From Halolamina sediminis (lineage in GTDB: Archaea > Halobacteriota > Halobacteria > Halobacteriales > Haloferacaceae): a stretch of DNA of 64,000 bases. Below the pieces are notes generated by a model. The model had not been told where the DNA came from, made no database searches, and saw only the letters and a program-made list of their open reading frames with translations. Within the stretch, counting starts at the first letter, position 1. Each line of letters begins with the position of its first letter. Location of the stretch: NCBI RefSeq assembly GCF_001282785.1, contig NZ_CVUA01000001.1, forward strand, positions 558,001-622,000. The letters run 5' to 3'. Shown one piece after another: positions 3,469-41,446 of this stretch. A program made the position numbers and the translations under genes.

Positions 3469-3499
3469 AACGACTGAACGAACGGAGTGAGTAAAGAAG

Positions 3500-37733: not shown

Positions 37734-38384
37734 ATGTCCGAATCAGAGGGCGTCGCTGACACCGACGTCGAGGCCGACGAGGTAGTGGTGTTCAGCGACT
37801 ACGTCTGTCCGTTCTGCTATCTGGGTCGCGCGTCGCTGGCACAGTACCGCGAGGGTCGCGACGCACCGCTGGCGGTGGAGTGGCACCCCTTCGACCTCCG
37901 GGGACACAAGCGCGACGAGAACCGCGAAATCCGCAATGACGTCGACGACGGGAAGGACGAGGACTACTTCGAGCAGGTTCGGGAGAACGTCGAGCGCCTG
38001 AGCGAGCAGTACGACGTGGCCCTCGACATCGACGCGGTGCCCGACACCGACTCCTGGAGCGCCCAGCAGGCGGCGTTCTACGTTCGCGAGGAACACCCCG
38101 AGCAGTTCGAGGCGTTCGACGACGCGCTGTTCGAAGCGTTCTGGGACGACCACCGCGACATCGGCGACACCGACGTGATCGCCGACGTCGCCGAGTCGGC
38201 CGGCCTCGACAGCGAGGAGATCCGCAAGGCGGCGACCGACGAGGAGTGGGCCGACCGGCTCGAAGCGCAGTTCCAGAGCGCCCGCGACCGTGGCGTCACC
38301 GGCGTGCCGACGTTCGCCGCCGACGGCCACGCCGCCCGCGGCGCGGTGCCGCCCGAGCAGCTCGAGCGCCTGATCGAGGGTTGA
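37734..38384 (+). CDS. DsbA/FrnE-family thioredoxin-fold protein
   Basis: A 216-aa thioredoxin-fold oxidoreductase with a 'CPFC' redox centre at Cys25-Cys28 in 'DYVCPFCYLGRASL', and the cis-Pro loop 'GVTGVPTFAADG' near the C-terminus. The helical insertion and lack of signal peptide point to the FrnE subgroup of cytoplasmic DsbA-like proteins (2-hydroxychromene isomerase-like fold). It probably handles thiol/disulfide exchange or stress; the partner is unknown. Confidence 0.88.
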   Translation: MSESEGVADTDVEADEVVVFSDYVCPFCYLGRASLAQYREGRDAPLAVEWHPFDLRGHKRDENREIRNDVDDGKDEDYFEQVRENVERLSEQYDVALDIDAVPDTDSWSAQQAAFYVREEHPEQFEAFDDALFEAFWDDHRDIGDTDVIADVAESAGLDSEEIRKAATDEEWADRLEAQFQSARDRGVTGVPTFAADGHAARGAVPPEQLERLIEG

Positions 38385-38403
38385 TCGCCCGGCTCCCACG
38401 AAA

Positions 38404-38413
38404 CACTTATACT
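38404..38413 (+). promoter_or_regulatory. TATA box of the candidate ncRNA upstream of mutS
   Basis: cacttatact lies 20-27 nt before the predicted 5' end at about 38,431 and just after the DsbA-like gene, so it cannot serve mutS, which starts 350 bp away and has its own box. Confidence 0.55.
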
Positions 38414-38430
38414 TCGGCTCCGTTCTTTCG

Positions 38431-38673
38431 GGTGTCGCGATGCTCCCCGGTTCGGGGTAGGGGCCTTATCGGGGCGGCACCGCGGCGATGCGCGCATCGC
38501 CGTGCGGTCGGCCAGACGTGGCCGTTCACCCACGGCGGATTCGTTATTCGCGAGACGGGGAAACACGACCGAAGGGAGTGGTAAACCGTCTCGGCTGCGA
38601 ACAGGGCGGGACCGGAGGTCCCGCTGGCAACCGGGAGCCACCGGCTCCCGGTGACGGGGAGCAACGCGACCCG
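38431..38673 (+). ncRNA. candidate structured RNA upstream of mutS
   Basis: This 243-nt stretch has no plausible gene but folds tightly. A closing helix joins gtcgcg (38434-38439) to cgcgac (38665-38670) and tgctccccg (38441-38449) to cggggagca (38655-38663). Inside are a 10-bp hairpin at 38481-38504 containing a G-U pair, cggcca/tggccg (38509-38524), cgagacgg/ccgtctcg (38551-38593) enclosing a tandem G-A motif, gcgggacc/ggtcccgc (38606-38624) and a 10-bp hairpin at 38630-38652. A TATA box precedes it and a further hairpin follows. The hallmark motifs of RNase P RNA and SRP RNA are absent. Type unknown. Confidence 0.5.
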
Positions 38674-38690
38674 TGAGCTGCGGTTCACGC
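38672..38690 (+). terminator. hairpin at the 3' end of the candidate RNA
   Basis: cgtgagc-tgcg-gttcacg forms a 7-bp stem (one G-U) with a 4-nt loop right after the closing helix of the candidate RNA. It may be the last stem of the RNA or its terminator. The rest of 38,691-38,758 holds only the mutS promoter. Confidence 0.35.
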
Positions 38691-38727
38691 CAAACGCGAG
38701 CCGCGACGACCGCCAGCGACCCGCAGG

Positions 38728-38735
38728 GCTTTAGC
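38728..38735 (+). promoter_or_regulatory. TATA box of mutS
   Basis: gctttagc is placed about 25 nt before the mutS ATG, so mutS is probably transcribed on its own, leaderless, and not from the upstream RNA promoter. Confidence 0.5.
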
Positions 38736-38758
38736 CACCAACCCACCGAGACACCTCC

Positions 38759-41446
38759 ATGTCGCAGGGAATCGTCGAGGAGTTCCTCTCTCTGAAGGCC
38801 GAGACCGACGCGGATCTGCTGTTGATGCAGTGTGGCGACTTCTACGAGCTGTTCGCCGACGACGCCGAGACCGTCGCCGACGAGCTCGACCTCACGATCT
38901 CCCAGAAGTCCTCCCACGGCTCCTCCTACCCGATGGCGGGGGTGCCGCTCTCGGAGCTCACCCCCTACCTGACCGCACTGGTCGAGCGGGGCTACCGCGT
39001 CGCCGTCGCCGACCAGTTCGACGCCGAGGACGGCTCGAAGTACCGCGAGATCACCCGGCTCGCGTCGCCGGGCACGCTCGTCGAGACCACCGACGACGAC
39101 GCCCAGTATCTCGCCGCGGTCGTGGAGGGGCAATCCGGCGAGTACGGCCTCGCGTTTGCTGACATCACCACGGGCCGCTTCCTCGTCACGGCCGTCGACG
39201 GCGCCGACGCCGCGAGCGCCGAACTCTACCGGTTCTCCCCCACCGAACTCCTCCCCGGCCCCGGCGTTCGCAACGACGACGCCCTGCTCTCGCGGCTGCA
39301 GGAACGCCTCGACGCCACCCACACGCTGCGTCCGAGCGACGAGTTCGGGGCCGGCCGCGCGCGCCACCGCGTCCGCGAGCGGTTCGGCGAATCAACGCTC
39401 GAGAGCATCGGTCTCGACGATGACTCCCCCGCCGTGCAGGCTGCGGGCGCGATTCTCGCGTACGTCGAGGACACCGGCCTCGGCGTCTCGGCGGCGATGA
39501 GCCGGCTCCAGCACTACCGCCCCGACGACCACCTCGACCTCGACGCGACCACCCAGCGCAACCTCGAACTGGTCGAGACGATGCAGGGCGGCAGCGAGGG
39601 GTCGCTGTTCGACACCATCGACGCCACGGTCTCCTCGCCCGGCCGACGCCTGCTGCGGGAGTGGCTCACGCGCCCCCGCCGCGATCAGGAACTACTCGCC
39701 CGCCGCCACGATGCGGTCGAGTCGCTCGCCTCGGCCGCGCTCGCTCGCGAAGCCCTGCGGGACTGCCTCGACGACGCCTACGACCTCGAACGGCTGGCGT
39801 CGCGGGCCGCTTCCGGCTCTGCCGACGCGGGCGACCTGCTCGCGGTAACCCAGACGCTCGCGGTGCTGCCCGCGCTGGAGGACGCGATCGACGACACGCC
39901 GCTTGCGACCTCGCCGCTGCCGGAGGTGCTCGCGAAGCCCGACCGCGCGGCCGCCGCCGACCTCCGGGACGACCTCGACGCGGCGATCCGCGAGGACCCG
40001 CCGAAGACCGTCACGCAGGGCGGGATCTTCCGTGAGGGGTACGACGACGAGCTCGACGAGCTGATCGAGCGCCACGAGGAGCTGGAGCGGTTCCTCGATA
40101 CGCTCGCCGACCGGGAAAAACGCCAGCACGGGCTCTCACACGTCACCGTCGATCGGAACAAGACCGACGGCTACTACATCCAAGTCGGCAAGAGCGTCGC
40201 CGACCAGGTGCCCGAACACTACCGCGAGGTGAAGACGCTCAAGAACTCCAAGCGGTTCGTCACCGAGGAGCTGGAGGAGAAAGAGCGGGAGATCATGCGC
40301 GTCGAGGAGGCCCGCGGGGAACTGGAGTACGAGCTGTTCGAGGAGCTCCGCGAACGCGTCGCCGCCCGCGCCGAACTCCTGCAGGACGCCGGGCGCGCGA
40401 TCGCCGAGGTCGACGCGCTGGCCTCGCTGGCGGACCACGCCGCGCGCAACGACTGGACCCGCCCCGAACTCACCGACGGCGACGCGCTGCACGTCGAGGC
40501 CGGCCGCCACCCCGTCGTCGAGACCACGACGGAGTTCGTCCCGAACGACCTCCACCTCGACCGCGATCGGCGGTTCCTGATCGTCACGGGGCCGAACATG
40601 AGCGGGAAGTCGACGTACATGCGACAGGCCGCGCTGATCACTCTTTTGGCGCAGGCCGGCAGCTTCGTCCCTGCCCGAGCCGCCGAAGTCGGCCTCGTCG
40701 ACGGGATCTACACCCGCGTCGGCGCGCTGGACGAGCTCGCACAGGGGCGCTCGACGTTCATGGTCGAGATGCAGGAGCTCTCGAACATCCTCCACTCGGC
40801 GACCGAGGACTCGCTCGTGATTCTCGACGAGGTGGGGCGCGGGACGGCGACGTACGACGGCATCTCGATCGCGTGGGCCGCGACAGAGTACCTCCACAAC
40901 GAGGTCCGGGCGAAGACCCTCTTCGCGACCCACTACCACGAACTCACGACGCTCGCGGACCACCTCGACGGGGTGGCGAACGTCCACGTCGCGGTCGACG
41001 GCGAGCCGGGCGAGGAGAACGACGTCACGTTCCTCCGGACGGTTCGGGACGGCCCGACCGACCGCTCCTACGGGATCCACGTCGCCGACCTCGCGGGCGT
41101 GCCCGGCCCCGTGGTCGACCGCGCGGGCGACGTGCTCGACCGCCTGCGCGAGGACAAGGCCATCGAGGCTCGCGGCTCGGGCGGCGACGGCGAGCCAAAA
41201 CAGGCCGTCTTCGACCTGAGTTCGGGCAGCTTCGCGGGCGCGACGAGTGCCGACGAACCGGGCGGGGGAGCGGCCGACGCGACCCCGGAAACTGTTGGCG
41301 ACGGTGGCGGGAACGTCGAGGGTGAGCCAGTCGATCCCGAGGCCGCCGACGTGCTCGACGAACTCGACGGAACCAACGTCGCGGAGATCTCGCCGATCGA
41401 ACTGATGCAGCGCGTCGAGGAGTGGCAGTCCCGGCTGGAGGACTGA
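38759..41446 (+). CDS. mutS: DNA mismatch repair protein MutS
   Basis: Mismatch-recognition ATPase, 895 aa. The mismatch-wedging Phe-x-Glu motif is intact ('GDFYELFADD', Phe28-Glu30). The C-terminal ABC-type ATPase has Walker A 'GPNMSGKSTYM' near residue 611 and the Walker B/D-loop 'DEVGRGTATYDG'. After the ATPase there is a low-complexity Gly/Asp-rich linker and a C-terminal helix-turn-helix ('ISPIELMQRVEEWQSRLED'). The last codons are part of a 37-bp tandem repeat. It is followed by Nudix and mutL genes on the same strand. Confidence 0.97.
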   Translation: MSQGIVEEFLSLKAETDADLLLMQCGDFYELFADDAETVADELDLTISQKSSHGSSYPMAGVPLSELTPYLTALVERGYRVAVADQFDAEDGSKYREITRLASPGTLVETTDDDAQYLAAVVEGQSGEYGLAFADITTGRFLVTAVDGADAASAELYRFSPTELLPGPGVRNDDALLSRLQERLDATHTLRPSDEFGAGRARHRVRERFGESTLESIGLDDDSPAVQAAGAILAYVEDTGLGVSAAMSRLQHYRPDDHLDLDATTQRNLELVETMQGGSEGSLFDTIDATVSSPGRRLLREWLTRPRRDQELLARRHDAVESLASAALAREALRDCLDDAYDLERLASRAASGSADAGDLLAVTQTLAVLPALEDAIDDTPLATSPLPEVLAKPDRAAAADLRDDLDAAIREDPPKTVTQGGIFREGYDDELDELIERHEELERFLDTLADREKRQHGLSHVTVDRNKTDGYYIQVGKSVADQVPEHYREVKTLKNSKRFVTEELEEKEREIMRVEEARGELEYELFEELRERVAARAELLQDAGRAIAEVDALASLADHAARNDWTRPELTDGDALHVEAGRHPVVETTTEFVPNDLHLDRDRRFLIVTGPNMSGKSTYMRQAALITLLAQAGSFVPARAAEVGLVDGIYTRVGALDELAQGRSTFMVEMQELSNILHSATEDSLVILDEVGRGTATYDGISIAWAATEYLHNEVRAKTLFATHYHELTTLADHLDGVANVHVAVDGEPGEENDVTFLRTVRDGPTDRSYGIHVADLAGVPGPVVDRAGDVLDRLREDKAIEARGSGGDGEPKQAVFDLSSGSFAGATSADEPGGGAADATPETVGDGGGNVEGEPVDPEAADVLDELDGTNVAEISPIELMQRVEEWQSRLED

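Follow-up and report, generated by a model that had tools for sequence, protein, structure and literature searches.

We analyzed the intergenic region upstream of mutS in Halolamina sediminis within a window of 64,000 nucleotides (the whole stretch of DNA that was examined, to whose first letter all positions refer). The region is preceded by a gene for a DsbA-family oxidoreductase and followed by mutS itself, whose closest named relatives among the matches listed belong to Haloferax, with about 73% identity. A homologous intergenic region was found in each of the seven genus genomes sampled, i.e., in the window strain and six others. In one of these (G086, a 79%-complete genome), mutS is frameshifted about 70 codons in (L032), probably as a result of an assembly error. 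The original prediction for the locus was a single closed RNA of about 240 nt with its own promoter, in which a long closing helix brackets five hairpins. The sequence features on which it was built, namely the TATA box, the helix, the five hairpins, the tandem GA motif, and a separate box for mutS, are all present, but the stretch that they span does not delimit one RNA. The features recognized here are listed in Table 1.

Table 1. Genes, predicted signals and structural elements between the DsbA-family gene and mutS (window positions)
Feature	Position	Strand	Remarks
DsbA-family oxidoreductase gene	37743..38384	+	Pfam DSBA, E = 8.5e-41; 5' of the RNA gene; start codon approximate
Predicted RNA-gene promoter, BRE/TATA block CGAAACACTTATA	38399..38411	+	TTATA at 38407-38411
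Candidate core RNA gene, ~110-115 nt	38434..38548	+	Conservation begins and stops sharply at its edges
Hairpin 1	38434..38486	+	Small symmetrical interruptions; consensus fold, 99% of cells paired
G-rich apical segment of hairpin 1, CGGGGTAGGGGCC	38453..38465	+	Invariant in genus alignments
Perfect 18-bp palindrome GGCGATGCGCGCATCGCC, linker between hairpins	38484..38501	+	Pairing kept in all seven sequences
Hairpin 2	38497..38538	+	Invariant tip CGGCCAGACGTGGCCG; 97-100% paired; C-G replaced by U-A at one pair (double change)
Dispersed tandem-GA hairpin (GAGACGGGG...CACGACCGAAGGGAGTG...CCGTCTC)	38552..38592	+	Outside the RNA gene
Two-hairpin palindromic element, 53 bp	38603..38655	+	Hairpins 38606-38624 and 38630-38652; this strain only
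Second tandem-GA mini-hairpin, GGG-GA-GC-AAC-GC-GA-CCC	38656..38672	+	Motif scan, local fold
mutS TATA-like box, CGCAGGGCTTTAGCC context	~38729-38735	+	Invariant in the genus; mutS start at 38759
mutS	38759..41446	+	Pfam MutS domains I-V

A promoter-like block of the form CGAA[AG]CACTTATA is present at 7/7 loci of the genus. The TATA box that had been proposed ahead of the RNA was confirmed, as TTATA begins 26 nt before position 38433, and this distance, counted from its first base to the T of TGTCGCG, is identical in all seven genomes. The 21-nt spacer between promoter and core is poorly conserved (4 of 21 columns invariant), and constant spacing across such a variable spacer is what one would expect between a promoter and its transcription start. 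The conserved block that follows comprises about 106 to 115 nt and extends from TGTCGCG (38433) to CACGGCGG and a T-rich stretch (~38548). It occurs once per genome, always 5' of mutS. The 5' end of the core RNA is predicted at 38433 to 38436, and its 3' end would lie in the T-rich stretch just past hairpin 2, although this run of Ts is short by the standards of archaeal terminators. The initial claim of an independent RNA gene that lies 5' of mutS and has a promoter of its own thus draws support from conservation at all seven loci and from the constant spacing.

The core is far more strongly conserved than the third codon positions of the neighboring gene. In an alignment of six species, from which G086 was left out owing to the mutS frameshift in its assembly, 84 of 106 core columns are invariant, compared with 52% of third codon positions (P = 4e-7) and 44% of fourfold sites (P = 4e-9) in mutS. 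We also considered whether the conserved block might be a short protein-coding gene starting from an ATG at 38440, since six of the seven species have an ATG close to the predicted start and the frame stays open in G002. Because of indels of one or two bases, however, the frame differs from species to species, and the core holds no conserved reading frame; in addition, the ATG is missing in one species and the frame in the window stops after a few codons. A coding gene is largely refuted by these indels and can be regarded as extremely improbable.

Folded alone, the core forms two hairpins in all seven sequences. Standard pairs occupy 98% of the 258 pair cells of this two-hairpin model, which is above slid controls, and two of its pairs show double changes; the one in hairpin 1 is a C-G to U-A change found in two species. 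Since the seven sequences are close and 27 of the 37 pairs never vary, the covariation signal is modest, and comparative sequence data therefore argue modestly for a conserved RNA secondary structure. Both hairpin tips are invariant in the genus: hairpin 1 ends in the G-rich sequence CGGGGUAGGGGCC, and the tip of hairpin 2 can also be given as CGGCCAGACGUGGCCG. The 12-nt core of the G-rich segment, GGGGTAGGGGCC, occurs once in each of the seven genomes, within the core RNA, and no perfect complement of it was detected elsewhere in them. A simple full-length antisense target is therefore not seen.

The linker between the two hairpins coincides with a perfect palindrome whose pairing is kept across the seven species (100% paired, with compatible changes and one double change) and which might fold into a central hairpin that competes with the other two, or serve as a contact for dimerization. 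In the isolated core, this central hairpin costs 3.5 to 7 kcal/mol; folded at full length, the sequence of the window strain adopts it (38482-38503) in place of the two-hairpin fold. A palindrome in such a central position would also suit an element acting at the level of DNA with no RNA involved, for instance, the binding site of a dimeric regulator or a replication or recombination site. The conservation, however, covers about 106 nt, includes changes that are compatible with the stems, and begins at a constant distance from the TATA box, which fits a transcript better than a DNA element, and we consider the latter quite unlikely.

The same palindrome raises the possibility of a cis-acting leader or attenuator of mutS, in which competition between it and the two hairpins would switch read-through into the gene. 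The core shares its orientation with mutS, synteny is constant in the genus, and the palindrome is kept alongside both hairpins, with a coordinated triple change in G066. Against a leader, mutS has a conserved promoter of its own 24 to 30 nt before its start codon, in agreement with the separate mutS box of the original prediction; this TATA-like box is also found 5' of mutS in Halorubrum, Halohasta and others. Furthermore, the distance from the core to mutS varies between 172 and 954 nt among the genus loci, other genes lie within this gap in G066, and the alternative hairpin is disfavored by the energies given above. The variable distance, together with a convergent gene that ends 34 nt past the core in G066, marks the RNA as a separate unit, and the separate mutS promoter and the wide gap favor an independent, trans-acting sRNA. 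A role as a mutS leader is thus unlikely.

Searches for known families were in line with the earlier statement that the RNA could not be matched to any of them. Rfam 15 at gathering thresholds returned only two tRNAs for the whole window, and a search of positions 37900 to 38900 at E <= 10 gave chance-level matches only, far below thresholds. Archaeal RNase P RNA (RF00373) and SRP RNA (RF01857) showed no match at the locus, and the genome's own copies of these RNAs are located at C1:2333916 and C1:1563120, respectively. An H/ACA guide RNA, which would need a pseudouridylation pocket and, on the 3' side of each hairpin, an ANA box, was likewise rejected: neither hairpin 1 (GAUGCGCG) nor hairpin 2 (AUUCGUUAUU) is followed by ACA, and the interruptions of hairpin 1 are small only.

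A covariance model of the core recovered all seven genus genomes at 115 to 133 bits. Among the 171 genomes of the family, it yielded nothing convincing in the 164 from outside the genus, a search that a more diverged homolog could escape, and no convincing core homolog was found in a class-wide sample of 292 genomes. With laxer filters, a search of 40 relatives gave matches of 21 to 25 bits only besides the core of the genus. The best non-genus match (G128, 33 bits) lies in an apparent histidine-kinase coding region and was judged to be due to chance. In the region 5' of mutS in other named haloarchaea, the core had neither a blastn match nor a convincing covariance match, and no viral contig matched in a search from the locus.

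We then turn to the part of the locus downstream of the core. The proposed closing helix pairs 38434-38449 with 38655-38670 as 6 plus 9 bp around an A/A mismatch, and a closed RNA of about 240 nt, in which this helix and all five hairpins are functional, is energetically attractive. The 266-nt fold has a free energy of -161.5 kcal/mol (z = -6.4; 0 of 200 shuffles as good), and the joint fold of both halves in the window strain is 16 kcal/mol better than the two separate folds (-149.4 versus -133.1 kcal/mol). Moreover, among random genomic segments of 144 nt, only 0.1% pair with the 5' arm as well as the downstream stretch does (-32.2 kcal/mol). The closing helix is, however, absent from the six other species of the genus, and in the five of these species tested, the best equivalent pairing of the arms reaches only -6 to -27 kcal/mol and lies in other registers. 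Homologous loci without the helix, the very observation named beforehand as one that would refute a closed RNA, are therefore what the genus presents. Synteny and covariation upstream of mutS accordingly gave a divided answer, with seven of seven loci and a few compensatory changes for the core but no conservation of the closing helix. The 5' arm of the helix is formed by one strand of hairpin 1 and most of the 3' arm by the second tandem-GA mini-hairpin; most plausibly, the helix is a chance pairing or one particular to this strain. The proposed length of about 240 nt fared no better, as conservation in the genus is limited to the first ~113 nt. A closed RNA would also require the central hairpin, which competes with the two-hairpin fold kept in the genus.

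The hairpins downstream of the core are missing or different in the relatives as well. The block from 38552 to 38672 is missing or replaced in most of them: in G030 and G077, hardly anything separates the two-hairpin core from the mutS promoter; G050 retains only a short remnant; G066 carries two small genes between core and mutS, one of them the convergent gene mentioned above; and G002 has a tandem array with a period of ~79 bp. The tandem GA motif that had been assigned to the RNA does exist (CACGACCGAAGGGAGTG at 38564), but its hairpin is a dispersed repeat, absent in G030 and G077, with similar copies elsewhere in the genomes of the genus and in the array of G002. This hairpin and the one at 38656-38672 follow a common plan, in which a stem leads to two GA dinucleotides facing each other, then to two base pairs and, as a rule, a GNA loop. 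In a sample of 464 kb (20 genome pieces of 20 kb each plus the window), tandem GA with a GNA loop was found 17 times compared with at most 2 times (mean, 0.44) for control double mismatches, and in 80 named haloarchaeal loci the plan was found 22 times versus at most 6 for controls. Within the window, such mini-hairpins (stem-GA-NN-GNA-NN-GA-stem, e.g., CGCGAGCGAAGCGAGCG) are located at 3478, 22803, 38564, 38656, 48520, 48565 and 54113; two of them adjoin the window's tRNA genes, and the plan recurs in other haloarchaea.

Between the two tandem-GA hairpins lies the 53-bp element with two hairpins of its own. Its first hairpin was found at 17 places in the strain's own genome, compared with none for the reversed pattern, with compensatory changes between the copies, and G086 displays the corresponding empty site (GCGAAC^GGGGAG). 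By these characteristics, the block from 38552 to 38672 is made of dispersed or mobile palindromes of a REP/SMR-like kind and does not belong to the RNA gene. With the second half consisting of dispersed palindromic DNA, one of its elements inserted in this strain only, the large closed RNA is untenable as proposed, and we consider it very unlikely. The gain of 16 kcal/mol in the joint fold would allow for a longer, strain-specific read-through RNA. In a more elaborate version, a two-hairpin class of RNA restricted to the genus would work as a bistable regulator through mutually exclusive pairings among its 5' end, linker and hairpin 2, and would have captured a mobile palindrome and become a longer closed RNA here; this version seems very improbable.

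Further copies were observed at other sites. About ten in the strain's own genome (L170 to L176 and L179 to L181) have a longer unit (GAGGCGTCCACCGC...GTGAGCAGG-GCGAGACC...GGTCTCGCTGGC...CGGGCGACGCGTGGGTCGCCCG...) and form a larger dispersed family. At L039, L043 and L046, repeat copies adjoin tRNA genes, where the tRNA 3' end is present a second time (e.g., GGTTCAATTCCCGCGCCCGGACC), which suggests repeat-linked duplication of tRNA ends.

Related palindromes also lie inside genes. In birA of G000 and G086 (L209 and L210), a two-hairpin palindromic element is found in frame after the KWPNDVL motif and adds residues such as VSRAEPEVPLA to the biotin ligase; G077 has a shorter insert and four other species have none. 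A kinase-like gene carries a related 51-bp two-hairpin palindrome in frame after DLRAENVLVVDG in G030 (L220) and G086 (L226). In G030, this insert is flanked by a perfect 9-bp direct repeat, GACGGCGAG, indicative of target duplication, and five other species show an empty site. The presence of the birA and kinase-gene copies thus varies by species, as insertion polymorphism.

Bacterial REP elements and Rickettsia palindromic elements are dispersed imperfect palindromes as well, and the latter are also inserted in frame within genes; the palindromes described here differ from both in their archaeal host and in their sequences. In Haloquadratum walsbyi, PATEs, SMRs and MITEs are short transposase-free mobile repeats, many of them palindromic, and one kind of repeat has been found inserted into palindromes of another (PMC3119063). 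Similar nesting is seen here, with the 53-bp element sitting inside the tandem-GA repeat. While SMRs of Haloquadratum measure 80 to 110 bp, the element here is ~42 to 53 bp long, and its two GC-rich hairpins lie side by side, joined by a T-N-GCA linker. PATEs and SMRs lack target duplication, in contrast to the 9-bp direct repeat at the kinase-gene copy, which argues against a PATE or an IS605-derived element; the likeness to these repeats is by description only. No description of these repeats was found in a literature search covering the repeat sequence and haloarchaeal palindromic elements.

Taken together, the locus is best explained by an independent, genus-specific sRNA at 38434-38548 next to unrelated mobile or dispersed palindromes, a reading to which we assign a probability of roughly 0.6. 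That the region is composed of an RNA gene plus repeats, as its anatomy indicates, is very probable. We infer that the core RNA, with its two stable hairpins in ~110 to 115 nt, is transcribed from its own TATA box ~26 nt upstream, and the transcript would terminate among the T residues that follow hairpin 2. It would act in trans and present one or both of its invariant tips, the G-rich one of hairpin 1 and that of hairpin 2, to partner RNAs or a protein. The RNA would not be a mutS leader, given the separate promoter of that gene, and the strongly folding palindromes downstream would happen to pair with the 5' end of the RNA in this one strain. The core is probably a haloarchaeal sRNA of the regulatory type, and the suggestion that it regulates by base pairing or protein binding is tentative.

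An RNA limited to one genus fits what is known of this group, as about 72% of the small RNAs identified in Haloferax mediterranei have no sequence homolog in other archaea (PMC5852579). Like the intergenic sRNAs of that species, the core is intergenic and structured, and no convincing homolog of it was found outside its genus; it differs in that it is known here from sequence alone and occurs genus-wide at one locus. The comparison with individual Haloferax RNAs was made via the covariance searches of the family and class. If transcribed, the core would be a new conserved archaeal sRNA with sharp boundaries, in a group in which most sRNAs are unconserved and few have known functions. The locus also calls for caution, as strong folding of GC-rich haloarchaeal intergenic DNA can stem from mobile palindromes. 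The palindromes themselves, some of which interrupt conserved genes without shifting the frame, may turn out to be the broader lead.
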